DNA from: Apoda limacodes
Lineage: Eukaryota > Arthropoda > Insecta > Lepidoptera > Limacodidae
Direction of reading: 5' to 3'
Assembly: GCA_946406115.1 (NCBI GenBank)
Contig: OX291544.1
Coordinates: forward strand, 11,160,001-11,224,000
DNA length: 64,000 nt
Position 1 is the stretch's first letter. Each line of letters begins with the position of its first letter. Made by a program: the position numbers and the translations under genes. Below are positions 25,604-48,567 of the stretch, in pieces. Under the pieces are notes generated by a model. It did no database searches. It was not told the DNA's origin and worked only from the letters and a program-made list of their open reading frames with translations.

Positions 25604-26226
25604 ACCTATGAAACCTTAGAGAAAACTTTGGCAGGTAGCTCATTCCATAACCTAAGCGTTCGCGTGATGCAGTTTCTCTGTAACTGCACTGCACGTGACC
25701 ATTTAGGTTCTAAGGTGTGAGGATGAATTCGCTGCCGATGGCGAGCGGTGAGATGATAGAAAGTAGTCGTGGGCATAATTTCGAACAATTCCTCAGATAA
25801 AATCCTATTATAAAAGCGGTAGAACACACACAGGGAGACAGAGTCTCTCCTCAAACTTAAGGGTTCGATAAGGTTTGTGAGTTTAGGATAGTTGATAATT
25901 CTCACAGCCCGTCGTTGAACCGATTCAAAAGGGCTAAGTTGGTATCCGGGTGTACCCACCCAGAGATGGCCGCAATCTTGCGACTTGTAAACCAGCAACC
26001 TTTGTTCCAAGGCGAAGTACTACTTCTGTTGAAAACACCAAGTTTTTTGGACGCCAGCTTCACTTTGTCTTGCAAATGATCTCTGAACTGAACATCGCTG
26101 GAGATGTCATCACCAAGGATCCCAATACTCTTGGAGATGGTAAAGGATGTGTTCTAGAATTGTGGGACCTCAGTGAATGAAAACCTTCTTAGCAGAGAAC
26201 GCGCCAACAACCACCAGCGTTAATGT
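25604..26226 (-). mobile_element. Jockey-like LINE, left part of copy split by the LTR element
   Basis: The minus-strand frame 25606-26010 reads the ORF2 C-terminus: YQLSPFESVQRRAVRIINYP, then IEPLSLRRDSVSLCVFYRFY, then FEIMPTTTFYHLTARHRQRI and LWNELPAKVF. It is the same family as the copy at 9285-11300. The sequence is broken at 26226 by the giant LTR element and resumes at 48568, where the next upstream part of the same LINE is found. The 4 bases before the insertion (ATGT, 26223-26226) are duplicated at 48564-48567. Confidence 0.8.
26223..26226. repeat. target site duplication, left
   Basis: ATGT immediately before the 5' LTR, repeated at 48564-48567 after the 3' LTR. Removing the element rejoins the two LINE halves. 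Confidence 0.8.
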
Positions 26227-26946
26227 TGTAGTGGACCCAAGCCTTTAATAGAGAGTTGTAGCAATCCGGACCCCACGACACGGTGTTGATTTGCTAAATT
26301 AAGTCTTAAGAGAACAGGTAAATTAAAGAAAATGGGATTCATTAATAATAAATATAAATTAGATCAATCACCTTCGTAATTCATACCAATCGAATACTAT
26401 CGAGATCGATGAAACATTAAGTGAGTGAGTGGCCCGGATGTCCTCACCGGTCTTAGATTAATATATTTATATCTACGCCATAAGGCGTAAATCGCAGTGG
26501 GATCCTAAAATCATCAACACAAAGAAAAATAATTACTCGTTAAATACGACCGATTCGTAAAGTAGCAGATAACCAGGAGGTTAAAATATATGGAGAATAT
26601 CGATCGATTATTTTCAGTTAATTGTTATAAATATCGTAGGGTGCGAGAGGGATAGTAGAGTAGGCTCCGCGCCGCTTACGACGAGCCTTCAATGTGTAAA
26701 TTAATCGAAGCTGTATAATCGAGTCACAAAGAAGCGGAGAAACTAGTTCGGCAGGTAAAGAGTTTAGTAGAATCGGGTGACGATTTCGATATGATTGTTC
26801 GATTATTACTATAAAGTAACTGGCCACTAAAATGCGAAGCACGTGGGTACACGTGGAAGTAAAATAAAGAAGAAATTAACTGGCGCCACAATCCCTAGAC
26901 ACGCCACGTGTTCAGGCCGCGTCTATCGGGGGGGAGGGGAGAACGG

Positions 26947-26968
26947 TTATAAGCGATAGGCGTCAGTT
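26947..26968 (+). promoter_or_regulatory. possible LTR core promoter
   Basis: TTATAAG (26947-26953) followed by an arthropod initiator-type TCAGTT (26963-26968). The spacing is shorter than the usual 30 bases, so one of the two may be incidental. Position just upstream of the splice donor at 27109 supports a start here. The same sequence occurs in the 3' LTR at +16733. Confidence 0.35.
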
Positions 26969-27108
26969 GCGGCACCCTTTTCCACTGTCGTCGTACCGAG
27001 AGGCTGGCCGTGCTCGAGATTTCTGAGGAGGCGGGAAGGACAGGACGAACAAAGATTTGAAGAAATTTAATACCGACGCCGTGCACGTTTCGCCTACATC
27101 AAATATCA

Positions 27109-27114
27109 GTAAGT
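27109..27114 (+). promoter_or_regulatory. splice donor for leader intron (predicted)
   Basis: ATCA|GTAAGT, a strong donor. Paired with the acceptor TTGTTGCAG ending at 38172 it would remove 11,064 bases and leave a leader of about 200 bases before the gag ATG at 38226. Inferred, not shown. Confidence 0.45.
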
Positions 27115-27569
27115 GTCTTTTGTGAGAACTGAGGCTAGCAATGTCAACTTATTATTGATGGGTTTGTACTATGGGGCTTTGTGAGGGACTTCCTTTATAC
27201 CATGGCGTAAGGACTGTGTAAGGGACCGTGTAAGATGCCACCTTGGTTAAAGTGAAGGGTTGGTTGGGGAAAATTGAAAGTGGTTGACTTTTTGGTTGGG
27301 ATTCTAGTTGTAAATTTGGAGTAGAGAAGGGAAAAACCCTTGCTTATTAAAAATGCAGAGGTAGTTTGTTGACATTGTTGGCTATGTACTCTTAAAGGAA
27401 AAGAGATTGCCGATTTCTGCAGAAAATTTAGTGGAGAAAAGGGCTCCTGCCGGGATCGGCGTCTCTTAACATGATGTTGTAAATTTTGTGATACTTTGTG
27501 GGAAGAAACCCCGTAATTAGGCTCTGATCTGATTAGTTAAGAAATCGTTTAAGATTAGGGTTAAGGTCA

Positions 27570-28019
27570 GGCAACCCTTGTGTAAATCCTGTCCTGTGTA
27601 TATGTATATCTTATTGATGAAAGCCCTACGCAAGTCCTAAGCATCGACTTCGCGCTTTGATCGGACTCGAGGTGACGGGGCATGCTTACATGACTTGGCA
27701 GGCAACCCTTGTGTAAATCCTGTCCTGTGTATATGTATATCTTATTGATGAAAGCCCTACGCAAGTCCTGAGCATCGACTTCGCGCTTTGATCGGACTCG
27801 AGGTGACGGGGCATGCTTACATGACTTGGCAGGCAACCCTTGTGTAAATCCTGTCCTGTGTATATGTATATCTTATTGATGAAAGCCCTACGCAAGTCCT
27901 GAGCATCGACTTCGCGCTTTGATCGGACTCGAGGTGACGGGGCATGCTTACATGACTTGGCAGGCAACCCTTGTGTGAATCCTGTCCTGTGTATATGTAT
28001 CTTCATTGATGAAAATCCT
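27570..28019 (+). repeat. 131-bp tandem repeat in 5' LTR, 3 copies plus partial
   Basis: Units begin GGCAACCCTTGTGTAAATCC at 27570, 27701, 27832 and 27963; the fourth is cut after about 57 bases and diverges. Copies are nearly identical (one visible change, CTAAGC versus CTGAGC). Minus-strand frames in this array are a by-product of the 131-bp periodicity. Confidence 0.95.
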
Positions 28020-28575
28020 ACACGCTTTGGTAGACGCTCATTAGAATGGTACAGTTATGTTACATGTAATTGATGGTTATGTTAATGATATCTCTATATC
28101 CGCTACTTACTATCTCAATCATTTTAGTCCCGATGTCTTGTTGCGTTGCGGTATGGGTGACCCCCAAAGCAAGCAGACCCTTGGTAGATAGAGGTAGGTG
28201 AGGACGGGGCAATCACAGTAGGGGTTCTTCAAGCGGGGTCTGGCTTGTTATAAGATTAGGGAAGATTGGGGCTTGATGTTAGAGACATACTAGGATAACT
28301 GCAGGCTTCAGGAATCTAAGGGTGTGAGGGGGCTGATAAAACCTAAATCTGGGTTGGCTCCAGTTCCACCCTTCACCGGCGTCGAGTGGGGAAGCTGAAC
28401 TGTTAGATGCCGTTTAGGTAATGGGTGGCTAAAATTTAATGTGGGATTTTTAACCCAATCTCCTTAAGGAATCCATAGATAAATAGTACCTCCACTCCAC
28501 CCATTATTGCGACGGATAGATTTGGAAAGCTAAGTATTATTGTGTTCATATTTAAATATTTGTTTCCTGTGTAAA

Positions 28576-28581
28576 AATAAA
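28576..28581 (+). promoter_or_regulatory. candidate LTR polyadenylation signal
   Basis: AATAAA followed by a T-rich stretch (ATATGTTTTTCAG) some 15 bases later. It lies about 1.6 kb after the candidate start and about 235 bases before the ribozyme. Counterpart at 45309-45314. Confidence 0.3.
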
Positions 28582-28815
28582 CGTAAACCTCATATGTTTT
28601 TCAGAGCCGCGACATTAATCTAGAGAGTCTAATTTTTAATTAGACTATCTAAGCTTTATTTTATTGCTTTATACTGTTTAATTTATGTTTTGACTAAGCC
28701 ATTTAAGATAAAGATGACAGAACTTCAACATTGACCAAACTTTATTAACAGGCTATGAGGTGACGTTAGTGGGTCAGGATTTGTTCTATTCTTCGCCATG
28801 AATCACCCCGTTGAA

Positions 28816-28892
28816 GACGTATTAGTATAATCATACACAATTCTCTACTAACTGATGAGGCTCTGAATTGTTGTATGGAAAGCCGAAACGTT
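28816..28892 (+). ncRNA. type III hammerhead ribozyme, 5' LTR copy
   Basis: All conserved parts are present in order. Stem III 5' strand GACGT (28816-28820) ends in the U of the cleavage triplet GTA, with cleavage predicted after A28821. Stem I is TTAGTA (28822-28827) with TACTAA (28846-28851), six perfect pairs and an 18-base loop. The catalytic box CTGATGA is 28852-28858. Stem II is GGCT (28859-28862) with AGCC (28881-28884), closing an 18-base loop. GAAA is 28885-28888, with the last A opening stem III: ACGTT (28888-28892) pairs with 28816-28820 (four Watson-Crick pairs and one G-U). Stem III is open to the transcript, which defines type III. Loops I and II are mutually complementary over about 12 positions (28832-28843 with 28865-28877, one bulge). 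Confidence 0.92.
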
Positions 28893-28901
28893 AAGTTCTA
28901 A

Positions 28902-28958
28902 ACACTCAGAAAGGGCTAACCCTTACTTGATCTGGCTAATGCGCCGGGTCCTGAGTGT
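28902..28958 (+). other. structured RNA segment after the ribozyme (5' LTR)
   Basis: An 8-bp outer stem ACACTCAG (28902-28909) with CTGAGTGT (28951-28958) encloses a hairpin AAGGG-CTAA-CCCTT (28911-28924) and a smaller GGC/GCC hairpin (28934-28945). It follows the ribozyme by ten bases. Function unknown; the same structure is at 45635-45691. Confidence 0.5.
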
Positions 28959-31900
28959 GGATATGTCTTCCTTACAATCCACCTTAAACATATTTATTGT
29001 GTGTCAAACTAGGTGTTCTGTCGCCTTAATTACTCTGATGAACAATTCACCACTTAACCATGTGCGTAATCGCACACCTATTTTATTATTTCTTGTGAAC
29101 TTAGCTTGCACGGCATATGTTTCGGGCGAGTATAGCTTCTCCGGACTAGCGGCTATTTAAACTTAAGGAGCCTCTGGTTCGAACCGACCGATCGTAGGTT
29201 ATATTCAAATAATAACGAGATGGTCCCTTTAGTTCCGTAGTTAGTCATAGTAGTAAGGATAAGTACATGGTCGTCTGGTTGTTTGCCACCTCCGCAGCGT
29301 TATAAATGTAGGAGTTGGCGGGGAGCACTACTTACCTATCCTAAAGAACAGTTTAAGGCACGGTGTACGAAGGATAAAGGTTATCTATTAACTCAATTAC
29401 TAAATGACAGGAGGGCGAAGCCACAAGGTAAGCTAGTTTGATTAAACCTATCTACGAGTCTGTCAGGAGTTGGTCGTTATATACCTTCCTTGTTAAAGGT
29501 TCCAAGACGTCAGTCAGATAAGTACGATACAATTGACAACCGCTTAAGGCCAGACGGTACCCTAGGCCCTTAAGGCTATTCAAATTCAAGTTATACATAA
29601 TTAATTTTCAATATTCATTTTAGCGATCAAGTAGGAACAACCTAGTGTATGAGTTAGGCGAGCGTTAGGTTTTGTCTCAATTTTATAGTTTTGTTTTCAT
29701 AAACTTTATATTCTAGTGTAGATAATCGCCATAGCTTGTAACCATAAACTCAATTTTAGATCTAAGAACGAAATTCGTACTGACCGGGTCGCGAGATACT
29801 AAACCAAAACCGAACCAACGTAAATTAGTCGAAGGAAGGTCGAGTAACACGATTAGACTCTGTACCTGCGCAGAAGACTAAAATGTGAACTCTGCGCACC
29901 CACGTGACCACGAGACGCCAGCTGGGCACTTCGACGCACAGGCAAATGTATGGAAAGTCTGACCGGTTAGTCTTTAATTGGCCGAAGGGATAATTCGGTG
30001 GCGGGCCCAATAATTCTGAATAGAACAACTTACGAACCCTTAAGGAATGGTTGTATATGTGAATTTTCCTGGATGATTCCCAGTTAGGGTTACCCGTAAA
30101 CGACCTGGAAACTAGGATTGGTAGATTTAGATAGACTTCCATACTAAATCGTCCGCCCTTAGCGCCCTCTATAAGACCTCCTCAATATCTCCATTATTAG
30201 ACAGTTAGCTAAGATATCGATCGACCGAGTAATTCCACGATTATTACACAGATGGCGTGAGTTTCAGTGGTAAAATAATAATCATGAATGTATGTGGATT
30301 TCTGGATACCTACGGTTAGGACTATGTTATAACTTTATTTAAAGGGTAGGCTGTAGATGTATTTCAGGGTTACATTTACTTCTAATTTGTTAGTTTGTCT
30401 TTACGGCGATTCTACATATATTATTATAAGATTAGATTAGAAGAGAAGCTAGTAAGGATAGTGGTAGTCTTTTTATATACTTAGATTGCCTTTGGGGTGG
30501 CTTCTCGAATACCATTACGACTTTATAATTTCACTTAGGGGTTGTTAACGGGTTGTCAACAGGCTCTTTATGCAATTACTAAACTTATCGGTCAGTCTGT
30601 GGTGCATTCTTAAGTGTTATTGAGAGGGTTGTGTAATTTACGTAAGGGCCAGGCCGCGAGTATATTCGTTTTTATCTATATATATATATTCAATCTGTTA
30701 GTTCATCCGTATGGTGACCTTTCATATTACATTACAGTTTTATAACTTCGCTTAAGAGATCGATAGCTAGTCTACTAATAATTTATCTATGTACTTAATA
30801 GGTCCGCTTGTCTCCCTAATGCCTTATATATGTTGTTATTAGCTCCGACCTTCACTTAAGCGCAAGCTAGAGAACTGGTGACAGGTTAGTTGTGTAGGTT
30901 ATAGGTTAATTAAGGGATCAATAGCGTACCTGCTAATAATTTATTTAGTTATTAAATAGGTCTGTCTGTCTCTTAAATGATTTTGTTATATTATAAGTGT
31001 ATAAATTTAGTTAAGGGGAAGCCAGTGAGCTTATTAGTGGTTAGTACTTTCATATGTCTAAGGGTTCTTCCTTTTAAGGTGATTTTCCTACATTACTATG
31101 AGGTTACAAGTTTACTTAAGGGCAAGATAACTAGTGTATCGATGGACTACTTACCGTTTAAGAGTTCTCCTTTAAGGCGATTTCATACATTACTATAGGA
31201 TTACGACTTCACTTAAGGGGTATGCGGTCATAGTCGTTATAACTTCAAGGCCTATCGTGTTCGAGGGGTAACCGTGTTATTACGAGACATGTTCGGAGTT
31301 GTAAGGAGGTAGCTAGGCTGGTGAATAGGGTGACTTAGGCTAGGGTACTTCGACTACGTTAGGATAATAAATCGCATATATTTTAATCTGAAACTCGCAT
31401 TTAGTAATTTAAATTCTGGTCTAATGCTAATCAGGACTTAGTGGTTCTGCGGTTAAGGATTAGTTATAGGCCATTGCTTTTAATGTAGGTATAATGTAAA
31501 ATTAGGGTTTTGATTTTGTTCTTTCACACCTGGGACTGATTGAATCCATACCTCTTAGGATCTGGGGTTATTATCGGTCACAACGAGGGGTCCAAATAGA
31601 CGATTACGCCACTAGACGATCACAGCCAAATAAAATATTAGCTTTCTTTAATAATAACATTAACGGTTACAAAATATCATTAACATTTATAATAATAAAG
31701 GCAATAATAATATGTTAGGATTACGTACGCCATCACGTATTCAAATTGGCGACTACGTCAGTATACTCCACGTGAGTTCAAATTTATAATTTTATTATTT
31801 TTATAAAGAGGGGGGGGGGTTTCTACATTATGTGTTGCCGTTACCAGGATAGGATAAAGAACTAAAGGAGGCTTGTAAAAGCCTACATTTTGTTGTCGTA

Positions 31901-32108
31901 CAACGGATGGGAGGTCATTAAAATGGATTCCAGAAGAACAGGGGTGACAGAATGAGAAGTAAGGTACATACCTAAGCTTTCACTTTAGTAAAGGTAGACG
32001 GAGACCAATGTTATATTGGATCCCAAGGCTAGCCAGCAGGCAGAAATACACAAAGATACTGAGATTAAGGTATGTTTAATAAAAGAAAATCAAAAAATCA
32101 AAATGTTA

Positions 32109-32459
32109 TTAAACCTGGGGACGGAGGTATTTAGGTAGTCGCACCACTCCCCGGTGATGTCCACCATTCTTTTTGCGACGACCTCGACGCTTCCGTCGTT
32201 TCCTCTTCTCTTGCGGTGCGGATTCCGGTGGCGGTGGCCTACCCTCGGCGTTGTGGTCAGGAGACGCATTGTGATCGACAGGAAGGTCACCGGGATTGAC
32301 CACGCTGGAACACGTTGGAAAAGAAGGAGCGGAGACTCCGCCTGGGACATCGAGAACGTGGCGGATAACGCCACTGGACATAATAATAAGCTCGGAGGGC
32401 CTCCCCTCTACGACCAGACGAGAGCCGGTCTTCGAATACTCCCCTCGGGTCCGGGCCAT
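32109..32459 (-). CDS. antisense frame with arginine-rich motif, hypothetical
   Basis: A 116-codon frame running against the element, with ATG 32457-32459 in an AAATGG context. It ends with a very basic stretch EKRKRRKRRGRRKKNGG, similar in composition to nuclear/RNA-binding arginine-rich motifs. The segment is GC-rich compared with its surroundings, which makes long frames likelier by chance, and a sense frame of 152 codons overlaps it. A minus-strand ATTAAA lies about 30 bases beyond the stop. I do not recognise a family. Confidence 0.2.
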   Translation of the reverse strand: MARTRGEYSKTGSRLVVEGRPSELIIMSSGVIRHVLDVPGGVSAPSFPTCSSVVNPGDLPVDHNASPDHNAEGRPPPPESAPQEKRKRRKRRGRRKKNGGHHRGVVRLPKYLRPQV

Positions 32460-33496
32460 TTGGGATTTCAGGGGTTGTTATTTTTTAAACAAAATGGGGT
32501 TATTAAAGGACGATTTCACGGCCACGGAGTGAATGATACAAATAATGCTGGTATAACATCGAACTATATTAAATTTTCTGGAAGGAGGGTAGATTGGAAA
32601 TTGGATCGGTAACCTAAGGGGTAGATCGTTTTGTTTTCTCCCTTTTCCATGTGAGAGACCGAAAGGCGGAATAATAGTCTTAAATCCATACTATATCGAG
32701 ATATCTTTTAGAAGGTAGGTTGTAAATTAGTTGTTATGTAAAGCCAATTATAGACACAAGTTTAGGATAAAACCATATTAAATTAGTGTAAAAGAATGGG
32801 TTTATTTTAGTTAGGTAGTACAGTACATCTATTTAGGTACTAGTATAGTAAGATATATTCTACGACTTAGGCTTAGATATAGGAAGGCATTACTAGTAAT
32901 ATGTAGACATAAAATTACGGCTATTACGCAAAATTAAAATTACATTTATAGAATGGTAGGCAGGGGTATGTGTATGATCTAATAACCTTATTTATAAATA
33001 CATATTCGTATATCTCAATCATCCGAAACCTAGGGAACGGTATTCGTAAGATAAATCTTACTAGTCTCGTTCAATCTGAACTTCTATGTGGTAGTACCTA
33101 TATGCTTATTGTCATAACATAGGTTCAAGAAAATGTTTAAAAACTAGATTCGAATAAATTTATTATTGGATAGCACTATTCAATAATTATGGACCTTAGC
33201 TTAATATTGTGAGTACGGTTCGAATAAGCTTGTGAGTGTTGGTTTGTACGTATATGTGTGCGTAAGTAGATGTGGATAAGTATATAAATTCGCAGGTGTT
33301 TTATGGAAGGATTCTTGAACTTGTGATTGTCAACTGATAAAGTGGAGGAGTTAGCCGTACTATTTATAAAAAGGGGAACCCCCTTATGGACTTTAGTGGC
33401 CTGTCGCGAGGCATATTACCGTATGGACATAGATTAGAGATCAGTATAGTTGGGGTGGCCTTAATGAACTGTCTATATACATAGAATTATTATTAA

Positions 33497-33518
33497 GGGG
33501 GGGGGGGGGGGGGGGGGG
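33497..33518 (+). repeat. 22-base guanine tract
   Basis: An uninterrupted run of G in the leader, flanked by TATTAA and CACTGTGG. Similar G runs occur at 42753-42776 just before the 3' LTR and at the LTR ends (31810-31819, 48546-48555). Confidence 0.9.
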
Positions 33519-35469
33519 CACTGTGGAATAAAGGTCTTATATGCTGGGGGAGGGGGAGGACATAATAAAATAACGAGCACTTAAGAGGGCCCCAACGCAC
33601 ATATACCTTTGCTATGCGGGTGTGTAGCGGGAGTCGACAATGTTAGTTTCAGATAGAGCTCGTTTTCCAGTGGCGTAAAAATATTATAGATAGGCCCACA
33701 ACTTAGCGTAAAGGGGGGGAAATATTTGATTACAGTTACATCACATGCGATATAAAAATTAAATTACAGTAATTTTCTAGCTATGTAGTTATTTAACATG
33801 TCATGGAATAAATTATGCTCTCGCTAACTTGTTGATAACGAGTTATGAATTAAAAATAGAAAACGGGAAATTCGGCTGTAATTTTCTTAAAGAAAAAAAA
33901 AATTTGGTTTGGACAGAAACCGCGCAACCAAATGCAGTAATCTGCTAGTCAAAGAATGTAGAAGGCCATGTTATTTTCGGTTTGGAACTTGCCATAGGAC
34001 AGCGAAATCGATTTTAAACCCAAGCAGAAACCTGTACATTAAAGTAGGGTGCAGCCTAAATGTATCATTTTACTATTGAAGAGTTAGAGTGAGCTATTTT
34101 ATGATTAGGGAATGCATTGAAAGGCGGGATAGCGAGCATTTGGAATGTTAATGCAGAAGTGAGGTCATAAGGTCACTAAGATATTAGCTAAAGTAGGCCT
34201 CATCCATCTCAGTACTTTAATTTTATACTAAGTAGCGCTGACTTAGTAAGTTGGGGTCATCCCCATAGGCCATTTAGACATATCAGTATATATGTGTAAT
34301 TATCGGTTTATAAGTTTAGTTAAAGGGGTATTCCAAAGTACGAACATCTAATTACTGTTTCACTTGACGGTGACGTCTGTTAAGCCCTTAGACCAGGTGA
34401 ACTTCCTCCAACGGGAAGATTCATGTCTGGTAGAAGGTAACCTTAACAAAGTAAACAGTAGATGTTAAAACGACTAAATGTACTTTGTAAGTTGTTAGTT
34501 TAGGGATACGATATGGTGAAAGAAAATTATATCAAATAATATAAACGGGGGGAGAAAAGGGTGTGCGCTCGAGCGGGGATTTGAACTCGGAGTTTCCCGG
34601 GGTTTTGGCGCGAGCGTGAGGTGTTTGGCCGACGGAGCTGTCTGGGGTGATTCTGTGCGATCGAATGTAGACGTTAGGTTTAGGTCATCTTTTATAGATT
34701 CGTTGCTACCGTTCACGGGCTATTAGATTCAGATTTTTGGATACTTTTGGATCATGGTTTTGTTTGCCTAATTATATTGATTGTCGATAAATATTTTATT
34801 ACTAGGCGGACCAGTAATGTGAAAGGGTTTAACCTATTGTGATATTATTTATGAAGGTAATAAATTGGAAGTGTGATACTGAAATGTAAACGGGAAGTGT
34901 ACTTATGTATATATATATATATATATACAAATCGGATTAGGAAATTTAGTGTACTTAAAGGTAAGATAGGACAATGGCAGGTATTAGGTGGTGTTCAGGT
35001 CGGGTATGCCTGGTAGCGTGTTCCTTTTGAACTAAATAGGTTATTGTTAATAGGTATTATCTGTTTAAAGGGTTCTGTCGAGTAGGCGATATGTAGCAAT
35101 TGAGAAATGGGGTTGATGTCTGAGTAAAAACATTGACGTAGGTCAGGGACCGGTTTTGTTAGGGTAGTCATGTTAAGGGCGGTTAGAAATGAAATGTACA
35201 TTACGAGAGGGGAGGGTACCACAGTATAAATCGCTAAGTTGTTAGGGGAGGAGTCAACATAATAAATGTTTATTAAACTGCATTAACGTTTATTCAGAAT
35301 TAGGATTCGCATGAAATATAAATATATATATAAATTAGGTTCAGCGTAAGGTGAAAAGTGAGCTAGAACGTGGATAGATACTATTATCTGCTATGTAGAT
35401 GTGAAACTAAGGCAAAATTATTAAACCCAGCCGAGTAGGACAAGGTTATTATTTAGGTTGGTATGAATC

Positions 35470-36000
35470 GTGAATTGAAATGATTTTGGATTTTTATACA
35501 TGGCTAGTGTAACCCCTGTGATTTTTGCCGTGTGAGTTGCAGGGGGTCGTAATGTTTCGACAGGTACGATCCCTGAGTGACCGCGGGCGGTGCATGTCTA
35601 TGTGTGTGTATACATATTAGTATGCATACATGTGTATATGTGTCGAAGTTGAGGTCGGGCCCTGCCTTAATGGTGGGAGAGTCAGGTCCTTAACTGAAAG
35701 AGCGAAAAGGGTTATGCTGAGGGTGTGTTTAAATCGTCGCGGGTAAAGATTGTAATTTGTTAGGGCCTGAACTGAAATGATTTGGATTTTTTATACATGG
35801 CTAGTGTAACCCCTGTGATTTTTGCCGTGTGAGTTGCAGGGGGTCGTAATGTTTCGACAGGTACGATCCCTGAGTGACCGCGGGCGGTGCATGTCTATGT
35901 GTGTGTATACATATTAGTATGCATACATGTGTATATGTGTCGAAGTTGAGGTCGGGCCCTGCATGATGGTGGGAGAGTCAGGTCCTTAACTGAAGAAGAA
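35470..36000 (+). repeat. 297-bp tandem duplication in the leader
   Basis: Copy 1 35470-35766 and copy 2 35767-36000 (shorter). Both contain CTAGTGTAACCCCTGTGATT, CGACAGGTACGATCCCTGAG and the TGTATACATATTAGTATGCA palindrome-rich stretch. Differences are small indels in A and T runs. Confidence 0.9.
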
Positions 36001-36437
36001 AAGGGTGTTATGCTGGAGATGTGCTTAAGTCATCGGGAAAAAGATAAAAATAAAAAAGAAAAGGGGGGGGAAAGTTGTGAGTTGTTAGGATAGACAAACT
36101 TGCCTTGTGGGGTTCAGGGAGGTTTTAAGGTTCCGGCGACTGCCGTTTTGGTGGATCGCTTCCGGTGTATGGTTGGATAAGAGTGTGGAGGTATGCGTAC
36201 ATATGTATACGTCGTTAGTGGAAGTTAGGCTTAGCGTGAATGAGGGGTGGTTAGTTAAGGGGAGGAGGGGGATATGCGGAGTATGGGATTAGGCTGCTCT
36301 AGTATCAGCCTTATTACACAAGGTTCAAATTTTACAACCGGTTCTTATAGTTGCTGATAACAATTTAATATTTGCTTCTTAATATCATTAAATAAACAAC
36401 CCTCGGACGTCATTGCCCTATTCAGACTTTTGTACAT

Positions 36438-37655
36438 CATAACGAGCCTAGATTGAGTGAGGCCTTTGGTCCTTAACTAAAGCAGATCCGTCCTAGCTAT
36501 TTATTGCTAGAATGGACAAACTCCACCGTTTGCGTCCAAACATCATCGCCATATTCTAATTACTATATCTATCATAACGAGCTGAGGTTGAGTGAGGCCC
36601 TTGGTCCTTAATCGAAGCGTATACATTATAATGAGCCTAGATTGAGTGAGGCCTTTGGTCCTTAACTAAGGCAGATCCGTCCTAGCTATTTATTGCTAGA
36701 ATGAACAAACTCCACTGTTTGCGTCCAAACATCATCGCCATATTCTAATTACTATATCTATCATAACGAGCTGAGGTTGAGTGAGGCCCTTGGTCCTTAA
36801 TCGAAGCGTATACATTATAATGAGCCTAGATTGAGTGAGGCCTTTGGTCCTTAACTAAAGCAGATCCGTCCTAGCTATTTATTGCTAGAATGAACAAACT
36901 CCACCGTTTGCGTCCAAACATCATCGCCATATTCTAATTACTATATCTATCATAACGAGCTGAGGTTGAGTGAGGCCCTTGGTCCTTAATCGAAGCGTAT
37001 ACATTATAATGAGCCTAGATTGAGTGAGGCCTTTGGTCCTTAACTAAAGCAGATCCGTCCTAGCTATTTATTGCTAGAATGAACAAACTCCACCGTTTGC
37101 GTCCAAACATCATCGCCATATTCTAATTACTATATCTATCATAACGAGCTGAGGTTGAGTGAGGCCCTTGGTCCTTAATCGAAGCGTATACATTATAATG
37201 AGCCTAGATTGAGTGAGGCCTTTGGTCCTTAACTAAGGCAGATCCGTCCTAGCTGTTTATTGCTAGAACGAACAAACTCAACCGTTTGCGTCCAAACATC
37301 ATCGTCATGGTTAATTATCTATTGTGATTGAATACGGCTAACGATGAACGAACTCAACTGGTTGCTTCCCATTATCATCAAATTAACAAACTCAGTTAGT
37401 TGCTTCTGCACATCGCCGAATAGTTAAACTCAGCTGTTTATTCCTGAATGTCATTGAATGGATGAACGCAACGGTTTATTTCCGAAATGGACAAACTCAA
37501 CTGCTTGCGTTCAAATATAATCGCCATATTAAACCTATAAATATCTATCATGACGAGCCGAGGTTGAGTGAGGCCCTTGGTCCTTAATCGAAGCATATAC
37601 ATCATAATGAGCCTAGATTGAGTGAGACCCTTGGTCCTCAACCTAAGCATGTCAG
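36438..37655 (+). repeat. 189-bp tandem array in the leader
   Basis: The word GAGCCTAGATTGAGTGAGGC recurs every 189 bases from 36444 (36633 and on), about 4.7 good copies to 37308, then a diverged part to 37655. Each 189-bp unit contains two related half-motifs of about 55 bases, GAGCTGAGGTTGAGTGAGGC and GAGCCTAGATTGAGTGAGGC, each followed by a 'ttggtccttaa' segment. A short hairpin CTAGCTATTTATTGCTAG occurs once per unit. Confidence 0.92.
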
Positions 37656-38225
37656 TCAGTATCCGTCCTGATTACCGATGACAAATAGCGGACAACCTCA
37701 GTTGGCTGCTTCCAACCATCATTACCTTTTTCCCGAACTACTATATTCTTCATGTCTAACGAGTATATCTGGTGTTTCTTATTATAGAGCTGCAGGGGCT
37801 TGCTTTTGTTTCGACGGGGTGGGTTCTGGGGTGGTTGCGAGTTGAGGGTAAGGGGCTCAATAGGGGTTATTTATTTTTCTTTCTCCCCTTTGTTTTTCCC
37901 TTCCATGGGTGCTGTATCCTTTCTTGTTACCTTGATAGGTCTATAGTCTTGAGAGGACGCCATCTTCTATTATTAACCAATTCACGTGTGTTATCTCGAG
38001 AGGTCATTAAGAGGTTCCGTTCTTTATCTAAATAAGAAATTCTTGGTTTTGGCTTATTAAGAATAGTGTGTTAGGTCGTAGGCCCAGTTAGGTTGTTAAA
38101 GCCCTGTTAGGAATTAGGACAGGAGGAAATAAGTTTAGGGTCTTACCCAGACGGTCGTCTTGGTTGTTGCAGGGTTCGCGGAAGGGGCGCACGGTTATCG
38201 AGAAAATTTTTTGGAAGGGAGAATC

Positions 38226-39221
38226 ATGGGACGTCCTAGAAAACGACAAGCTAAGGGGAGCGACGATGAGAACAGCGATAGTGAGGATCTCAGAGCGACT
38301 AACGAAGGTTATAAACAGACCATTGCGGACTTAACTAAGCGAATACAAGAATTAGAGAAAAGGATAGAGGAAAGGGTCGGATTGGTTGTGGAGTCGGCAT
38401 CCCCCTCGATCAACCTTCCAGTTCCTAACCCGGAGCCAATTGTCGATCTGACCCCCCCGACGGTTAATGAGGAGGTAATAAAGTGCTGCAATCAAGTGGG
38501 CGCTATGTATAAATATGGGGGGGTGGAACGACCCAAGTTTAGCACCCCTGAGAGCTTGCATCCAGTAACGTTCCTTGAGAATTTGACGTATTACCTAAAG
38601 AGAGCACCTTTTAGGGACCATGAGATAGATGGAATTTTTGATTGCTTGGAGGGGGAGGCGAGAAATTGGGCTCGAGTGTATAAAGAGACATGGGGGTCTC
38701 TGGAGGACTTCAAAAGGGACTTCTTGGATACATATTGGGGGGAAAATGAACAAAATGCTTTGAGAAGGGACATAGTACAATCTGGTTGGGACAAGAAGGT
38801 TCATCCTACGATGCTGGGACATTTTTTACATTTAACCGGACAGGCTAAGATGTTGACATATGCCATTCCGGAGCAACAATTGGTGGGGGACATTATACGA
38901 CACTTTTCTAAGGAAGTACAGTACGCTTGGACAGTGGCAAGAGAAGAAGGGTTCGGGTTACTAAAGGCCACTAGTTTTCTGAGAAGACTAGACAACATAG
39001 ATAAGCAGAAGGGGCTTCTAGAGGGAGTGGGAGGATCCAAGGTGAGGCACATCCATGATGGTCAAGCTGGAAGTAAAGGAAACTGGAGGTACGGTCGTCC
39101 CGAAGCAAAGAAGAGCTTTACAAGATCTGGGCCCAACCGGTCGCCGGGTGCTGGAGGCCAGATGCCGCGGTTAATGGAAGTAAATTTAGAAAGGGAAGAG
39201 ACTTCCTTGGGAAACTATTAA
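38226..39221 (+). CDS. gag: Gag-like protein of the LTR element
   Basis: 331 residues from ATG 38226. The frame is open further upstream to a TTG, but 38226 is the first ATG. The N-terminus MGRPRKRQAKG resembles an AT-hook; a coiled coil follows (about 28-52, TIADLTKRIQELEKRIEE). Residues 95-260 match the retrotransposon Gag capsid fold: FLENLTYYL, LEGEARNWARVY, SLEDFKRDFLDTYW, then a segment around RRDIVQSGWDK. The tail is basic and glycine/serine-rich (271-312), but there is no CCHC zinc knuckle. Gag forms the particle that packages the element RNA. The stop TAA is at 39219-39221. Confidence 0.85.
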   Translation: MGRPRKRQAKGSDDENSDSEDLRATNEGYKQTIADLTKRIQELEKRIEERVGLVVESASPSINLPVPNPEPIVDLTPPTVNEEVIKCCNQVGAMYKYGGVERPKFSTPESLHPVTFLENLTYYLKRAPFRDHEIDGIFDCLEGEARNWARVYKETWGSLEDFKRDFLDTYWGENEQNALRRDIVQSGWDKKVHPTMLGHFLHLTGQAKMLTYAIPEQQLVGDIIRHFSKEVQYAWTVAREEGFGLLKATSFLRRLDNIDKQKGLLEGVGGSKVRHIHDGQAGSKGNWRYGRPEAKKSFTRSGPNRSPGAGGQMPRLMEVNLEREETSLGNY

Positions 39222-39297
39222 GAGCTGACGATTCGATCCCCTACTCAGCTCGTTACCCAGGGGAATTAGAGTTACGGTCCTACTTTCCTTTAAACAA

Positions 39298-42200
39298 ATG
39301 TTGGATGTAGGGTGGTTGCCTGGTTTGGGGTTAGGGAGAGGTAACGGTATACTTAGACCAATAATTTTAAAGGGGCAGGCCACGACTCAGGGTCTCGGGT
39401 TTCGTAACGATGATGTGTTGTCCGATCCAGTCGTCGGAGTGAGAGATAGGTTGTTAGATAAGGCTAATGAAGGACTAGGGCCTCTGAGTGTTAGGGTCAC
39501 ACCCGGGGTGAATTCAGTGTTCGAGGAAGAGGAGAAAGCAGTGGGATGCGAGGGGGAAGTCTTAAAATGTGAGATGAAAGTGAATATATGGGAGGAATGG
39601 GTCGATTGCCTCTTAGATACTGGTAGCGATATCACTTGTGTCAGCGAAGAATTTGTATTTAGACATAAGGACAGGACAGATATGGCGGTATTTCCGATAA
39701 GATGCTTACAGATCAGAGGGGCGGTGGGTCAACGTAGTTCGAAAATTCAAAAGGCTGTGGTGTTACCTCTAATGCTAGGGAAACATCGACTTGATTCTCC
39801 TTTCCTAATAGTCCCGAAATTAATAAGGCCGGTAATTTTAGGATTTGATTGGATGCGCCTTCATGGGGTGATACTAAAAATGGGGCCCACGAGGGTAGTA
39901 ATTACTATAACGATTGATGGAGAGGAGGTTTCGTTGGATCTGAGAAACCGAGAGATTAACTGCGTTTCGTCGGTTAGTCCTTTGGTGGGAGCTCCCGCCT
40001 TGCACCACGATAAACTCGAAGAAAACATACTTGTAGGGTTGGAGATTGGCCACGTAGGAAGGGCTCTACTTAAGGGGGTTATAGTGAAGTACAAGGATCT
40101 TTTTACGGGGGAGTTGGGACGCGCTAACTGTTATGAACATACTATTATCATGAAATCGGAGGAACCTGTGATGAAAAGATCTTATCCAGTTCCGTACGCT
40201 TATCGAGACCAGATGGGGAGGAAACTGGGACAAATGGAGAAGCAAGGGATCATCTCCCGAGCTTCCACTCCGTATTGTAGTCCACTTACTTTTAGATTCA
40301 AGTCTGATGGGGATCTACGGGTTTTGTTAGATGCTAGGGAGATAAATAAAGTTATGATAGCGGAGTCTGAAGCCCCTCCGGTTCAATTAGATGTGTTAAA
40401 CTCCTTTCATGGGGTACGTTTTATCAGCACCATTGACCTTAACAACGCCTATTTTCAAATTCCCCTGGCCGAGGGCAGTAAAAGGTACACTGGGTTCACA
40501 TTTAATGGAAAATCATATGTCTATAATGTTCTACCGCAAGGGCTGAAAACGTCGGTTGGTAGTTTTAGTCGGGCAATGGATAGGATATTGGGGCAAGAGG
40601 TTAGGACGTTTTGTGTCAATTATTTGGATGATCTGGCTATCCTTACTAGTGGTGATTTGCAGGAACACTTGGGTCACCTTGATGTCGTATTGGGTCGATT
40701 GCGCAAAGCCGGTCTAACCTGCAACTTGTCCAAATGTAGGTTTGTATGCGCGGAGGTGAAAATGTTAGGGCACATAATCGACACTGAGGGCATCCGGACT
40801 GACCCACAGAAATTGGAAGCCATTAGGGATTTCCCAGCGCCTAAGAAGATAAAACACTTAAGGGCGTTTTTAGGGCTTTGTAATTATTATCGCCGGTTTA
40901 TTCCGCGTTACAGCGAATTAATAAGGCCTTTGTGTAGGTTATTAGGAAAGGGAATACATTGGAGGTGGGATATGTCGGCTCGAGAAGCGTTCGAAGGGCT
41001 GAAGGGGGCCTTCATGAGTACGATTAGGTTACACCACCCTGATATAGGATCTCCATATATTCTGCAGGTAGACAGTTCGGGGGTAGGGGTGGCTGGGGTG
41101 CTATACCAGGGCCAGGGGGAGGATATGAAGGTTCTGGGGTATTGTAGCAGGTCGCTGAGAGGGGCGGAATTGAGGTGGACCGTTACCGAACAAGAACTAT
41201 GGGCTGTTATATATGGGATAAAGAAATTCGAGACTTACTTACGAGGCGCTAAGGTGATTATACGGACTGACCATAAAGCACTAACTTTTATGAAATCTTG
41301 TCGGCTGTTTAATAGTAGGGTTACTCGTTGGATTCTGTTTTTAGAGCAGTTTGATTATACTATGGAACACATAAAGGGGAAGGATAACCTGGTTGCCGAT
41401 GTGTTATCCAGGTACTTGCCGGAGGGTTTATCCATTCAGGAGGACAAAGTTTTAGGTCCCGAAATTAGTTATATGGGGGTAACGCTGGACCGGGAGTTGA
41501 GGAGCGATCTAACCCGTTTGTGCGAGTATCAGGCGGAGGACACTTTGTTGCGACTATTGAGAGAGCAAGTGGAAGGGCGAGGGGCCGCCACTGGTAGGCT
41601 GAAGCGAATTGGGGTTTTGAGTCGAATAATAGATGGAGTATTGTGCTTTGTGGGTTCGGGGAGAAATAGGGTGGTACCATTTTTACCTAGTGTTTTACAG
41701 GAGAGGGTGATATTGCAAGTGCATACGGAAATGGGCCACTTAGGGGCTCTGAAAACAGTAAAACTAATGCGCGACAGATATTATTGGCCGAACTTACGAA
41801 GACGCGTAAAGGAGGTGATATCGAGATGTCATATTTGCCAATTGTCTAAACCGAACAACGTGAACTTAGTCGGGAGCTGTAAATCCATTCTACCTGGGGA
41901 AATAGGAGATGTAGTAATGGCGGATTTGTACGGGCCTCTGCCCAAGGGGAAGTATGGATTAAGTTATTTACTAGTAGTACAGGATAGTTTCAGCAAATAT
42001 CTGAAGTTATTCGAACTAAGGAAGGCCACAGCTAAAGGAGTAGTTTCTAGAATTAGACTATACGGGAGGTTTATAAAACCAAAAACGATTCTGACGGACA
42101 ACGGCAGTCAATTCGTTAGTAGAGAGTGGAAGGAATCTTTAGCGGGGATGAGAATCCGACCTATCTACACCACGGTTAGGAACCCGCGGCCTAATATCAC

Positions 42201-42711
42201 GGAGAGGGTAAATCGAGAACTAGGGCGTCTGTTTAGAACTTATTGTCATAAAAATCACAAGGGGTGGGTCGACCAGGTAAGGAGGATAGAGGATTTGTAC
42301 AACAATACCCTTCACCTCAGTACCGGGTTTACCCCGAATGAGTTATTGTACGGTCGGAAGACGAGGTTGGCGATGGATGGGAAGACTAGTGAAGTGGTAA
42401 GCGAGAGTGAGTTAGAGGAAATGAGGAGGAGAGCTAGAGAGAAGTTGGTGGAAACTAGTAAAAGGCGAAATGAATATTTCGATAGAACGCACCGGTTGGT
42501 GAATTTCCAGATAGGAGATTTAGTGAAGGTGCGTCGTCACAATAAATCTAGTGCTATGCTTAAACAAATAAAAAAGTTCTCTTTACTATACGAGGGGCCT
42601 TATGTGGTTGCGGCAGTCCCCTTCCCGAATGTATATGTTCTAATGAATCCAATCAACAAGCAAATAAGAGGGAAGTTCAATGCCATACATTTGTCTAGAT
42701 ATTACAGTTAG
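39298..42711 (+). CDS. pol: Pol polyprotein of the LTR element (protease, RT, RNase H, integrase)
   Basis: 1137 residues, intact. Residues 1-36 fit a G-patch motif (GWLPGLGLGRG, then PI at 21-22, then GLGF at 32-35). Aspartic protease: LLDTGSD with D107, and VILGFDW at 179-185. Reverse transcriptase about 290-550, catalytic YLDD at 442-445. RNase H about 585-705 (VDSSG, EQE, TDHK, VADVLS). Integrase: zinc-binding H809-H814-C844-C847, catalytic D876, D934 (LTDNGSQF) and E969, then a GPY/F-type segment YEGPYVV near 1098-1104. Domain order is that of Ty3/Gypsy. The frame is +1 relative to gag and opens only at 39229, after the gag stop, so no overlap exists for classical frameshifting; ATG 39298 is the first start. 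All catalytic residues are present. Confidence 0.93.
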   Translation: MLDVGWLPGLGLGRGNGILRPIILKGQATTQGLGFRNDDVLSDPVVGVRDRLLDKANEGLGPLSVRVTPGVNSVFEEEEKAVGCEGEVLKCEMKVNIWEEWVDCLLDTGSDITCVSEEFVFRHKDRTDMAVFPIRCLQIRGAVGQRSSKIQKAVVLPLMLGKHRLDSPFLIVPKLIRPVILGFDWMRLHGVILKMGPTRVVITITIDGEEVSLDLRNREINCVSSVSPLVGAPALHHDKLEENILVGLEIGHVGRALLKGVIVKYKDLFTGELGRANCYEHTIIMKSEEPVMKRSYPVPYAYRDQMGRKLGQMEKQGIISRASTPYCSPLTFRFKSDGDLRVLLDAREINKVMIAESEAPPVQLDVLNSFHGVRFISTIDLNNAYFQIPLAEGSKRYTGFTFNGKSYVYNVLPQGLKTSVGSFSRAMDRILGQEVRTFCVNYLDDLAILTSGDLQEHLGHLDVVLGRLRKAGLTCNLSKCRFVCAEVKMLGHIIDTEGIRTDPQKLEAIRDFPAPKKIKHLRAFLGLCNYYRRFIPRYSELIRPLCRLLGKGIHWRWDMSAREAFEGLKGAFMSTIRLHHPDIGSPYILQVDSSGVGVAGVLYQGQGEDMKVLGYCSRSLRGAELRWTVTEQELWAVIYGIKKFETYLRGAKVIIRTDHKALTFMKSCRLFNSRVTRWILFLEQFDYTMEHIKGKDNLVADVLSRYLPEGLSIQEDKVLGPEISYMGVTLDRELRSDLTRLCEYQAEDTLLRLLREQVEGRGAATGRLKRIGVLSRIIDGVLCFVGSGRNRVVPFLPSVLQERVILQVHTEMGHLGALKTVKLMRDRYYWPNLRRRVKEVISRCHICQLSKPNNVNLVGSCKSILPGEIGDVVMADLYGPLPKGKYGLSYLLVVQDSFSKYLKLFELRKATAKGVVSRIRLYGRFIKPKTILTDNGSQFVSREWKESLAGMRIRPIYTTVRNPRPNITERVNRELGRLFRTYCHKNHKGWVDQVRRIEDLYNNTLHLSTGFTPNELLYGRKTRLAMDGKTSEVVSESELEEMRRRAREKLVETSKRRNEYFDRTHRLVNFQIGDLVKVRRHNKSSAMLKQIKKFSLLYEGPYVVAAVPFPNVYVLMNPINKQIRGKFNAIHLSRYYS

Positions 42712-42752
42712 TCAATGCTGTTATTCCGTTTTCCCGGGGCGACGGCTGAGAT

Positions 42753-42776
42753 GGGGGAGGGGGGGGGGGGGGGGGG
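42753..42776 (+). promoter_or_regulatory. purine (G) tract before the 3' LTR
   Basis: GGGGG-A followed by 18 G. A second, shorter purine run GGGGAGGA lies right before the 3' LTR at 42951-42958 and is the better placed polypurine tract for plus-strand priming. The large G run could be an accessory priming site or form a quadruplex. Confidence 0.45.
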
Positions 42777-44302
42777 ATTGGGAGAAAATCATTTTTTTTT
42801 GATTAACTTGTATCGTGGTCATTATTCAAAGAGGAGTGTATTAATATAAATAAACGATATCTATTGGTGACGGAGTTTCTTCTTGATACCCTGTCGAGTA
42901 TACCTTTAAGAAACAAGTCACAACTGATAAGTGTACATTTATGACTTGTTGGGGAGGATTGTAGTGGACCCAAGCCTTTAATAGAGAGTTGTAGCAATCC
43001 GGACCCCACGACACGGTGTTGATTTGCTAAATTAAGTCTTAAGAGAACAGGTAAATTAAAGAAAATGGGATTCATTAATAATAAATATAAATTAGATCAA
43101 TCACCTTCGTAATTCATACCAATCGAATACTATCGAGATCGATGAAACATTAAGTGAGTGAGTGGCCCGGATGTCCTCACCGGTCTTAGATTAATATATT
43201 TATATCTACGCCATAAGGCGTAAATCGCAGTGGGATCCTAAAATCATCAACACAAAGAAAAATAATTACTCGTTAAATACGACCGATTCGTAAAGTAGCA
43301 GATAACCAGGAGGTTAAAATATATGGAGAATATCGATCGATTATTTTCAGTTAATTGTTATAAATATCGTAGGGTGCGAGAGGGATAGTAGAGTAGGCTC
43401 CGCGCCGCTTACGACGAGCCTTCAATGTGTAAATTAATCGAAGCTGTATAATCGAGTCACAAAGAAGCGGAGAAACTAGTTCGGCAGGTAAAGAGTTTAG
43501 TAGAATCGGGTGACGATTTCGATATGATTGTTCGATTATTACTATAAAGTAACTGGCCACTAAAATGCGAAGCACGTGGGTACACGTGGAAGTAAAATAA
43601 AGAAGAAATTAACTGGCGCCACAATCCCTAGACACGCCACGTGTTCAGGCCGCGTCTATCGGGGGGGAGGGGAGAACGGTTATAAGCGATAGGCGTCAGT
43701 TGCGGCACCCTTTTCCACTGTCGTCGTACCGAGAGGCTGGCCGTGCTCGAGATTTCTGAGGAGGCGGGAAGGACAGGACGAACAAAGATTTGAAGAAATT
43801 TAATACCGACGCCGTGCACGTTTCGCCTACATCAAATATCAGTAAGTGTCTTTTGTGAGAACTGAGGCTAGCAATGTCAACTTATTATTGATGGGTTTGT
43901 ACTATGGGGCTTTGTGAGGGACTTCCTTTATACCATGGCGTAAGGACTGTGTAAGGGACCGTGTAAGATGCCACCTTGGTTAAAGTGAAGGGTTGGTTGG
44001 GGAAAATTGAAAGTGGTTGACTTTTTGGTTGGGATTCTAGTTGTAAATTTGGAGTAGAGAAGGGAAAAACCCTTGCTTATTAAAAATGCAGAGGTAGTTT
44101 GTTGACATTGTTGGCTATGTACTCTTAAAGGAAAAGAGATTGCCGATTTCTGCAGAAAATTTAGTGGAGAAAAGGGCTCCTGCCGGGATCGGCGTCTCTT
44201 AACATGATGTTGTAAATTTTGTGATACTTTGTGGGAAGAAACCCCGTAATTAGGCTCTGATCTGATTAGTTAAGAAATCGTTTAAGATTAGGGTTAAGGT
44301 CA

Positions 44303-44752
44303 GGCAACCCTTGTGTAAATCCTGTCCTGTGTATATGTATATCTTATTGATGAAAGCCCTACGCAAGTCCTAAGCATCGACTTCGCGCTTTGATCGGACT
44401 CGAGGTGACGGGGCATGCTTACATGACTTGGCAGGCAACCCTTGTGTAAATCCTGTCCTGTGTATATGTATATCTTATTGATGAAAGCCCTACGCAAGTC
44501 CTGAGCATCGACTTCGCGCTTTGATCGGACTCGAGGTGACGGGGCATGCTTACATGACTTGGCAGGCAACCCTTGTGTAAATCCTGTCCTGTGTATATGT
44601 ATATCTTATTGATGAAAGCCCTACGCAAGTCCTGAGCATCGACTTCGCGCTTTGATCGGACTCGAGGTGACGGGGCATGCTTACATGACTTGGCAGGCAA
44701 CCCTTGTGTGAATCCTGTCCTGTGTATATGTATCTTCATTGATGAAAATCCT
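44303..44752 (+). repeat. 131-bp tandem repeat in 3' LTR
   Basis: Same three copies plus partial as at 27570-28019, including the CTAAGC variant in the first copy, so the array has not changed since insertion. Confidence 0.95.
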
Positions 44753-45548
44753 ACACGCTTTGGTAGACGCTCATTAGAATGGTACAGTTATGTTACATGT
44801 AATTGATGGTTATGTTAATGATATCTCTATATCCGCTACTTACTATCTCAATCATTTTAGTCCCGATGTCTTGTTGCGTTGCGGTATGGGTGACCCCCAA
44901 AGCAAGCAGACCCTTGGTAGATAGAGGTAGGTGAGGACGGGGCAATCACAGTAGGGGTTCTTCAAGCGGGGTCTGGCTTGTTATAAGATTAGGGAAGATT
45001 GGGGCTTGATGTTAGAGACATACTAGGATAACTGCAGGCTTCAGGAATCTAAGGGTGTGAGGGGGCTGATAAAACCTAAATCTGGGTTGGCTCCAGTTCC
45101 ACCCTTCACCGGCGTCGAGTGGGGAAGCTGAACTGTTAGATGCCGTTTAGGTAATGGGTGGCTAAAATTTAATGTGGGATTTTTAACCCAATCTCCTTAA
45201 GGAATCCATAGATAAATAGTACCTCCACTCCACCCATTATTGCGACGGATAGATTTGGAAAGCTAAGTATTATTGTGTTCATATTTAAATATTTGTTTCC
45301 TGTGTAAAAATAAACGTAAACCTCATATGTTTTTCAGAGCCGCGACATTAATCTAGAGAGTCTAATTTTTAATTAGACTATCTAAGCTTTATTTTATTGC
45401 TTTATACTGTTTAATTTATGTTTTGACTAAGCCATTTAAGATAAAGATGACAGAACTTCAACATTGACCAAACTTTATTAACAGGCTATGAGGTGACGTT
45501 AGTGGGTCAGGATTTGTTCTATTCTTCGCCATGAATCACCCCGTTGAA

Positions 45549-45625
45549 GACGTATTAGTATAATCATACACAATTCTCTACTAACTGATGAGGCTCTGAA
45601 TTGTTGTATGGAAAGCCGAAACGTT
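45549..45625 (+). ncRNA. type III hammerhead ribozyme, 3' LTR copy
   Basis: Identical to 28816-28892. Stem III GACGT at 45549-45553, cleavage predicted after A45554, stem I TTAGTA 45555-45560 with TACTAA 45579-45584, CTGATGA 45585-45591, stem II GGCT/AGCC, GAAA 45618-45621. The distance to the 5' copy is 16,733 bases. Confidence 0.92.
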
Positions 45626-45634
45626 AAGTTCTAA

Positions 45635-48563: not shown

Positions 48564-48567
48564 ATGT
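48564..48567. repeat. target site duplication, right
   Basis: ATGT directly after the 3' LTR, matching 26223-26226. Confidence 0.8.

Follow-up and report, generated by a model that had tools for sequence, protein, structure and literature searches.

A predicted type III hammerhead ribozyme in the long terminal repeats of a coding Ty3/Gypsy retrotransposon of Apoda limacodes

The element, its surroundings and its hammerhead motif

The stretch analysed here, which we call the window, comprises 64,000 nucleotides of the genome of Apoda limacodes (GenBank assembly GCA_946406115.1, contig OX291544.1, positions 11,160,001 to 11,224,000 of the forward strand). An LTR retrotransposon of 22.3 kb spans positions 26227-48563. 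BLAST of the window against itself delimits a 5' LTR of 5601 bp (26227-31827), with TG...CA termini, and a 3' LTR of 5604 bp (42960-48563), both on the plus strand. The two LTRs start with TGTAGTG, finish with CTACA, have equal ends and are 99.93% identical, differing by one substitution and one 3-nt indel that spare the hammerhead ribozyme (HHR) described below. The target-site duplication (TSD) ATGT is found on the 5' side at 26223-26226 and on the 3' side at 48564-48567, and a polypurine tract (PPT; GGGGAGGA, 42951-42958, plus strand) adjoins the 3' LTR. The tRNA-His-like primer-binding site (PBS; 31833-31850, plus strand) matches the 3' end of a tRNA-His(gtg) gene of the same genome; that tRNA 3' end occurs at 12 places, the one that was read being the tRNA-His(gtg) gene. 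Among the 100 of 145 PBS sites listed in the genome, two forms are present: most sites have TGTTGCCGTTACC, and a minority have TGGTGCCGTGACC, which is complementary to tRNA-His in full. Because TGTTGCCGTTACC predominates among these sites, most copies would carry two mismatches to the primer.

A gag-like open reading frame (ORF) of 353 aa (38160-39221, plus strand) shows a weak match to Retrotrans_gag (E 0.058, below the cut-off). It is followed by a pol ORF of 1137 aa (39298-42711, plus strand), in which domain searches recognise reverse transcriptase (RT), RNase H, an H2C2 zinc finger and integrase, and whose best PDB match is the Ty3 polyprotein (E 9.6e-78). A weak protease match (RVP, E 0.0012, just below the cut-off) lies in the stop-to-stop frame 39229-42708. 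The Ty3/Gypsy features present are thus the RT-RNase H-integrase order, the LTRs, the PBS, the PPT and the short TSD. The 22.3-kb element is a recently active one.

In the stretch from the 5' LTR to the gag-like ORF, the plus strand holds one frame of at least 150 codons (157 codons). This non-coding leader contains 189-bp tandem repeats (4.6 copies, 36433-37308), and tandem repeats of 131 bp (3.5 copies, 27568-28021) lie inside each LTR. Poly(A)-like and TATA-like strings are numerous, and none of them is decisive for the transcript ends. Elsewhere in the window, a dispersed repeat (10468-10689 and 48656-48872, 81% identical) has its second place just downstream of the element, the segment 51830-52057 is 81% identical to its reverse complement over about 228 bp and may be a MITE-like palindrome, and the ORF at 2836-3597 encodes mitochondrial ribosomal protein L47 (uL29m), the sole host gene identified among five ORFs scanned.

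The predicted type III HHR lies in the 5' LTR at 28816-28892, and an identical 77-nt copy is found in the 3' LTR at 45549-45625, 16,733 bp downstream, both on the plus strand; the prediction draws on sequence, a descriptor, covariation and conservation. Stem III pairs GACG (28816-28819) with CGTT (28889-28892), its outermost pair being G-U, and is closed by U28820-A28888. T28820 and A28821 precede the predicted cut, which would fall after A28821 in the first copy and after A45554 in the second. Stem I has six perfect pairs (TTAGTA/TACTAA, 28822-28827/28846-28851) and stem II has four (GGCT/AGCC, 28859-28862/28881-28884), with the core motifs CTGATGA at 28852-28858 and GAAA at 28885-28888. The open helix is stem III, stems I and II being capped, as in the type III topology. 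The core order CUGAUGA...GAAA...UH is present here and in the HHR of a second family described below. An earlier note on this DNA had claimed a type III HHR with a complete core in the right order, cutting after A28821, inside the LTR of an animal Gypsy element. Our reading bears this out: every part stands at its position, the cut agrees with the core as read in the sequence, and stem III is open-ended with stems I and II capped. The place inside the LTR is supported by the 5601- and 5604-bp repeats with their TG..CA ends, the ATGT duplication, the PPT and the tRNA-His-like PBS, and the Gypsy assignment by the pol domains and the Ty3 match.

A type III descriptor (CTGATGA, GAAA and UH, with at least four pairs in stems I and II, at least three in stem III and loops of at most 25) gave two matches over both strands of the window, both of them the LTR copies. 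It gave none on either strand of first-order Markov sequence built from the window, in 8 Mb or in 64 Mb. When the whole window was scanned with Rfam, no family reached the gathering score, which is a curated cut-off and not a structural feature. On 301 nt, RF00008 scored 17.6 bits against a cut-off of 48.5 (E 0.36) in an alignment that displaces stem III, so the covariance match above threshold that the earlier note had proposed as a check was not obtained. A scan of three further loci (L038 of family 2, L001 and L065 of family 1) returned no HHR match up to E 5. Since the evidence from covariation and conservation is independent of the Rfam model, we read the low RF00008 score as a limit of that model and ascribe it to the 18-nt loops.

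Loop I and loop II of the window HHR, of 18 nt each, could pair with one another over 12 bp. The loop I arm (CATACACAATTC, 28832-28843) and the loop II arm (GAATTGTTGTATG, 28865-28877, with one bulged base at 28872), both on the plus strand, form a predicted pseudoknot duplex of -13.2 kcal/mol, and 2 of 2000 shuffled loop pairs were equally good. The predicted complementarity amounts to 12-13 bp in both families, at the level of sequence only. When pseudoknots are left out, the two arms form a hairpin of -17.0 kcal/mol, compared with -5.3 for the HHR fold; this hairpin is the predicted minimum free energy (MFE) structure in both families, and the fold energy of the HHR region does not stand out from that of its shuffles (z -0.57; 57 of 200 equalled it). 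Therefore, the HHR would have to gain from the pseudoknot pairing or fold co-transcriptionally. According to the accessible part of Perreault et al. 2011 (PMC3088659), loop pseudoknots are likely in about 40% of hammerheads, and type III pseudoknots are common when there is a two-pair difference between stems I and II. Stem I of family 1 is likewise two pairs longer than stem II (6 vs 4).

Conservation, a partner family and a second RNA structure

The genome searched comprises 800.3 Mb in 31 contigs. At the six contig starts that were read, CCTAA repeats open C1 and C5, two show N and the remaining two have different sequence. C31 (15.4 kb, of which 10 kb was read) is mitochondrial, and its tRNAs run Met-Ile-Gln; both this order and TTAGG telomeres agree with Lepidoptera. 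A 141-nt query gave 493 first-look candidates, and the 40 that were scored are all identical and make up 19 pairs 12.9-17.3 kb apart and two singles. The 75-nt HHR has 352 genomic copies with up to three mismatches (reversed control, 0), all of them exact among the 100 of 352 listed. In order to avoid choosing copies by the ribozyme, 22 PBS sites were taken from the 100 listed of 145, those already tied to HHR matches being excluded, and copies found through the HHR stand outside the substitution counts. A family 1 LTR with the HHR was found at 17 of these 22 sites. In the pieces read at the other five, there is no HHR at the family 1 place: L089 is a family 2 LTR, L088 is a family 1 LTR that breaks off at 28904, the LTR of L095 is diverged and its spacing is shifted, and L072/L084 and L077/L085 are family 1-like LTRs (97% and 84%) in which that place is taken by other sequence.

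In the 17 LTRs, substitutions affect 3 of 1105 cells in the core, stems and pseudoknot, compared with 13 of 204 in the unpaired linkers and 148 of 5728 in the flanks (Fisher 1.7e-8 on cells that are not independent, several of the 17 LTRs being near-identical). When variable sites of the first 10 LTRs are counted instead, the difference amounts to 2/65 vs 22/174 (p 0.029). The core has no substituted cell in 221 and the pseudoknot arms none in 408. Of the three HHR substitutions, a U-A to U-G change in stem II and a G-U to A-U change in stem III leave the bases paired, and the third, G to T, opens the outermost pair of stem III. Two family 1 LTR pieces that were found via the HHR (L007, C6:14345855-14348995, and L008, C6:14332459-14335599) come from an insertion of another subfamily; they are 2.2% diverged from the window's LTR over 2.7 kb and have an intact HHR.

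A pattern that excludes the stem II of the window gave 89+104 matches vs 8+17 in the reversed control, and most of the matches listed belong to one other family, called family 2. Its HHR reads GCGUA/UUAUUA...UAAUAA-CUGAUGA-GCCGG...CCGGC-GAAA-CGC, with a core identical to that of the window HHR. Between family 1 and family 2, both sides of a pair have changed in all three stems: G-C to U-A in stem I, A-U to G-C in stem III, G-C to C-G at the second pair of stem II and, by direct reading, U-A to G-C at its fourth pair. In both families, 13 of 14 aligned column pairs are standard, which sliding the partners destroys; the pair count was equalled in 67 of 500 shuffles, in a control that cannot reach significance with two sequences only. 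The loops of family 2 are unalignable with those of family 1, yet they are complementary to each other (-25.8 kcal/mol, 1 of 2000 shuffled pairs as good). Two outcomes that had been named in advance as informative, decay of the core in other copies and compensatory changes, thus came out in favour of the ribozyme, with no substitution in the 221 core cells and double-sided changes in every stem.

The family 2 HHR sits at the homologous place in the LTR, with 100-nt flanks about 70% identical to those of family 1 where aligned (64/92 and 66/93), and this shared place appears to argue against a recent insertion of the HHR as a small nested retrozyme. At five family 2 loci, the LTRs measure 3.5-4.8 kb and matching 4-bp TSDs are present (CCCT, ACAG, CAGG, AGCT and ATAG). 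Neighbouring family 2 HHRs are about 10.6-12.8 kb apart. In seven family 2 pieces scanned, no pol-like ORF of at least 150 codons was found, the frames being repeat-like only. Family 2 has in common with the window element its LTR ends, a PBS region of 114-115 bp (86-91%), a pol relic (70-75%) and the PPT context, the last of these over 67 bp at 79% in one piece by BLAST. Given the shared ends, PBS and pol relic together with a diverged LTR, family 2 is probably a non-autonomous derivative of a related element, which kept the hammerhead.

Patterns for a third HHR family, with both known families excluded, gave 8 matches (reversed control, 3) and 3 matches (control, 0); they fix several bases and cover third families of that make-up only. 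On reading, all three of the latter and four of the eight proved to be altered copies of families 1 or 2, and the remaining four look like chance; C1:3736288 and its inverted twin have no visible stem II. Searches for relatives in viral contigs by pol, HHR pattern and PBS gave no match.

A second conserved RNA structure is predicted, from its fold and covariation, directly 3' of the HHR (28902-28958, plus strand), with the 3' LTR copy placed by coordinate at 45635-45691. It consists of an outer stem (ACACUCAG/CUGAGUGU), a hairpin AAGGG/CCCUU and a hairpin GAUCUGGC/GCCGGGUC; the fold of 28893-28975 has -30.7 kcal/mol (z -4.1), a value that none of 200 shuffles matched. Across 13 sequences drawn from both families the last hairpin persists: 97.1% of its cells are paired, which 1 of 500 shuffles equalled, and double-sided changes occur in two pairs, a number that 153 of 500 shuffles equalled. 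The outer stem is kept in family 2, with a G-C to A-U change; it was read there by hand, MAFFT misaligning it by one column in A2. The first hairpin was not seen in family 2. Rfam has no match to the second structure (best E 2.5). The predicted folds of the 115 nt upstream of the HHR look different between the two families. The second structure would lie near the 5' end of the cleaved unit RNA discussed below, and our guess would be a packaging, ligation or translation signal.

Relation to known hammerhead-bearing elements

The closest parallels are with plants. Plant LTR retrozymes, in the accessible part of Cervera, Urbina and de la Pena 2016 (PMC4918200), likewise carry a type III HHR in both LTRs, a PBS, a PPT and a 4-bp TSD, and they likewise have a Ty3/Gypsy link and two HHRs that delimit one RNA unit. 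The same part of that paper describes them as non-coding, with LTRs of about 350 bp around 600-1000 bp and a tRNA-Met PBS, and reports no further Gypsy similarity. In contrast, it is here a coding 22-kb animal Gypsy element that itself holds the HHR, in LTRs of 5.6 kb. Family 2 looks non-coding, but unlike the small plant retrozymes it has units of about 10.6-12.8 kb. Judged by its sequence, the window element corresponds, in an animal, to the LTR retrozymes of plants, and it is coding and autonomous.

In the portion available of the work on metazoan non-LTR retrozymes (PMC7229834), these are also HHR-bearing animal repeats, with a unit RNA and circles of their own; however, their HHRs are of type I, their RNAs measure ~170-400 nt, and they form tandem repeats without LTR, PBS or PPT, whereas the HHR studied here is of type III and lies in LTRs. 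The hepatitis delta virus (HDV)-like RNAs of toad and termite and the motifs of termite and dipteran genomes, as described in the accessible text of PMC7936874, likewise have a type III HHR, with a Watson-Crick pseudoknot between loops I and II such as is predicted here. According to that text, the genomic motifs of termites are isolated, with no recognisable ORFs within 2 kb, and have a pseudoknot of about 4 bp and an extra hairpin in helix I; here, by contrast, 12-13 bp could form between plain loops of 17-18 nt, inside LTRs.

Penelope-like elements and Terminons show, in the parts available of PMC6431247 and PMC7761336, that an HHR may reside in an autonomous animal retroelement, although these HHRs are minimal type I motifs and their hosts are Penelope-type and not LTR/Gypsy elements. 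Burro and Ogre are likewise giant Gypsy-type LTR elements, Ogre having multi-kb LTRs and Burro tandem repeats, but the accessible part of PMC6431247 mentions no HHR in them, and the giant Burro polyprotein is absent from the window element. In the available portions of the open-licence literature we found no hammerhead within the LTRs of an autonomous Gypsy element from an animal, and the statement of the earlier note that no autonomous animal Ty3/Gypsy element with a type III ribozyme in its LTRs was known stands within those bounds. The parts and the kind are known; the combination is new relative to the open-licence literature searched.

A circular route of replication and the alternatives

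The two predicted cuts would release an RNA unit of 16,733 nt (28822-45554, plus strand), a figure obtained by arithmetic, with 3006 nt of the 5' LTR, 11,132 nt of internal sequence and 2595 nt of the 3' LTR. The LTR part of this unit, 3006 + 2595 = 5601 nt, adds up to a single complete LTR in circular permutation. The sequences themselves show the hammerhead fold, its presence in each LTR, the constraint, the covariation and the partner family, and from these we infer cleavage, a unit RNA, its circle and reverse transcription of that circle. We give even chances to the proposal that both LTRs encode a functional, pseudoknot-stabilised type III HHR, and that the cleaved unit RNA circularises and is reverse transcribed.

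In this proposal, which follows the circle-template model put forward for plant LTR retrozymes (accessible part of PMC4918200), the HHR in each LTR would cut, releasing a single-unit RNA that would lack the terminal R repeat used in ordinary first-strand transfer. A host RNA ligase, or the reverse reaction of the ribozyme itself, would then ligate the ends into a circle. The tRNA-primed RT would copy across the circle junction and so rebuild full LTRs, and the non-autonomous family 2, with its own hammerhead and a related PBS and PPT, may share this machinery. The terminal repeat would be lost wherever transcription starts, so a selected ribozyme is hard to square with ordinary strand transfer; since the unit would have no terminal redundancy, a circular, retrozyme-like intermediate fits better.

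The HHR may also be active and yet serve a linear RNA, by trimming its 5' or 3' end, by releasing it from read-through host transcripts or by limiting expression, while uncleaved RNA replicates by ordinary R-mediated strand transfer. We regard this as unlikely, though with a real chance of being right. There is a precedent in the HDV-like R2 ribozymes, which release the element RNA from 28S co-transcripts (accessible part of PMC3774820), and the position of the HHR in the middle of the LTR leaves room for such a role, none of the poly(A)-like and TATA-like strings being decisive. However, every cleaved molecule would lose its terminal redundancy and efficient cleavage would presumably cost replication, yet the HHR has been kept in two families.

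The genomic arrangement of copies bears on both readings. Among the 100 PBS sites listed of 145, at least nine pairs of same-strand neighbours are 7-17 kb apart. Three loci that were read are LTR-internal-LTR-internal-LTR arrays, one of them fully (C1:21.16-21.20 Mb) and those at C8:21.76 and C1:47.85 at their ends. One TSD surrounds each whole array: CCCT (L059-L062, C1:21163000-21202999), AGCT (L068/L069, C8) and ATAG (L070/L071, C1:47.85 Mb). Arrays with a single TSD are what multimeric cDNA from a circle predicts, but they are not unique to a circle, and unequal recombination between long LTRs also yields tandem arrays. At three of five family 2 loci (L059-L064, L070, L071), the LTR ends beside the PBS extend for 64-75 nt past a shared anchor and are short, compared with a long outermost 3' LTR end of 132-137 nt, and the TSDs match; of the other two loci, one has both ends short (C5) and one has both long (C8). 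These unequal ends are not expected from ordinary strand transfer, as the linear reading has it, and they fit a one-LTR circle no better, both routes predicting equal ends. Either gene conversion of inserted copies or a copying route in which the 3' LTR end is retained would account for them.

Returning to the circular proposal, a fuller version of it would have a circular genomic RNA of ~13-17 kb replace the R repeat, a large retrozyme-like parasite use the same trick, the HHR and the downstream structure act as one module, and the arrays derive from multimeric cDNA. We put this version forward tentatively, as one that could well be wrong.

Readings in which no ribozyme acts today fare worse. 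It seems very improbable that the motif is a once-functional hammerhead, now a passive passenger without present activity. Many young copies would be identical in any case, but constraint is concentrated on the core, stems and pseudoknot, and compensatory changes separate the families. The selected feature might instead be a hairpin or DNA palindrome of the loop arms, for example a regulatory or packaging signal, with the HHR core incidental. The arms are indeed the predicted MFE hairpin in both families, and a second conserved structure follows the HHR; however, such a signal would need neither CTGATGA, GAAA and the TA before the cut nor three separate stems, and with 0/221 substitutions in the core we give it only a very slight chance. 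Chance assembly of a hammerhead-like string, for which the weak Rfam score and nothing else speaks, is rejected by the 64 Mb of simulated sequence without a match and has a negligible probability in view of the hammerhead of family 2, which is distinct from that of family 1, covaries with it and sits at the homologous place in the LTR.

Our results have implications for the search for ribozymes, since the Rfam type III model can miss hammerheads with long predicted pseudoknots, of which LTRs may conceal others. Plant retrozymes are presumed to borrow Gypsy machinery, and a coding animal Gypsy element that itself carries a predicted ribozyme, in hundreds of LTR copies, hints at a possible origin of LTR retrozymes. 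Retrotransposition of LTR elements by way of a circular RNA becomes testable in an insect and, if it is true, an autonomous animal LTR retrotransposon would need no terminal R repeat for first-strand transfer.
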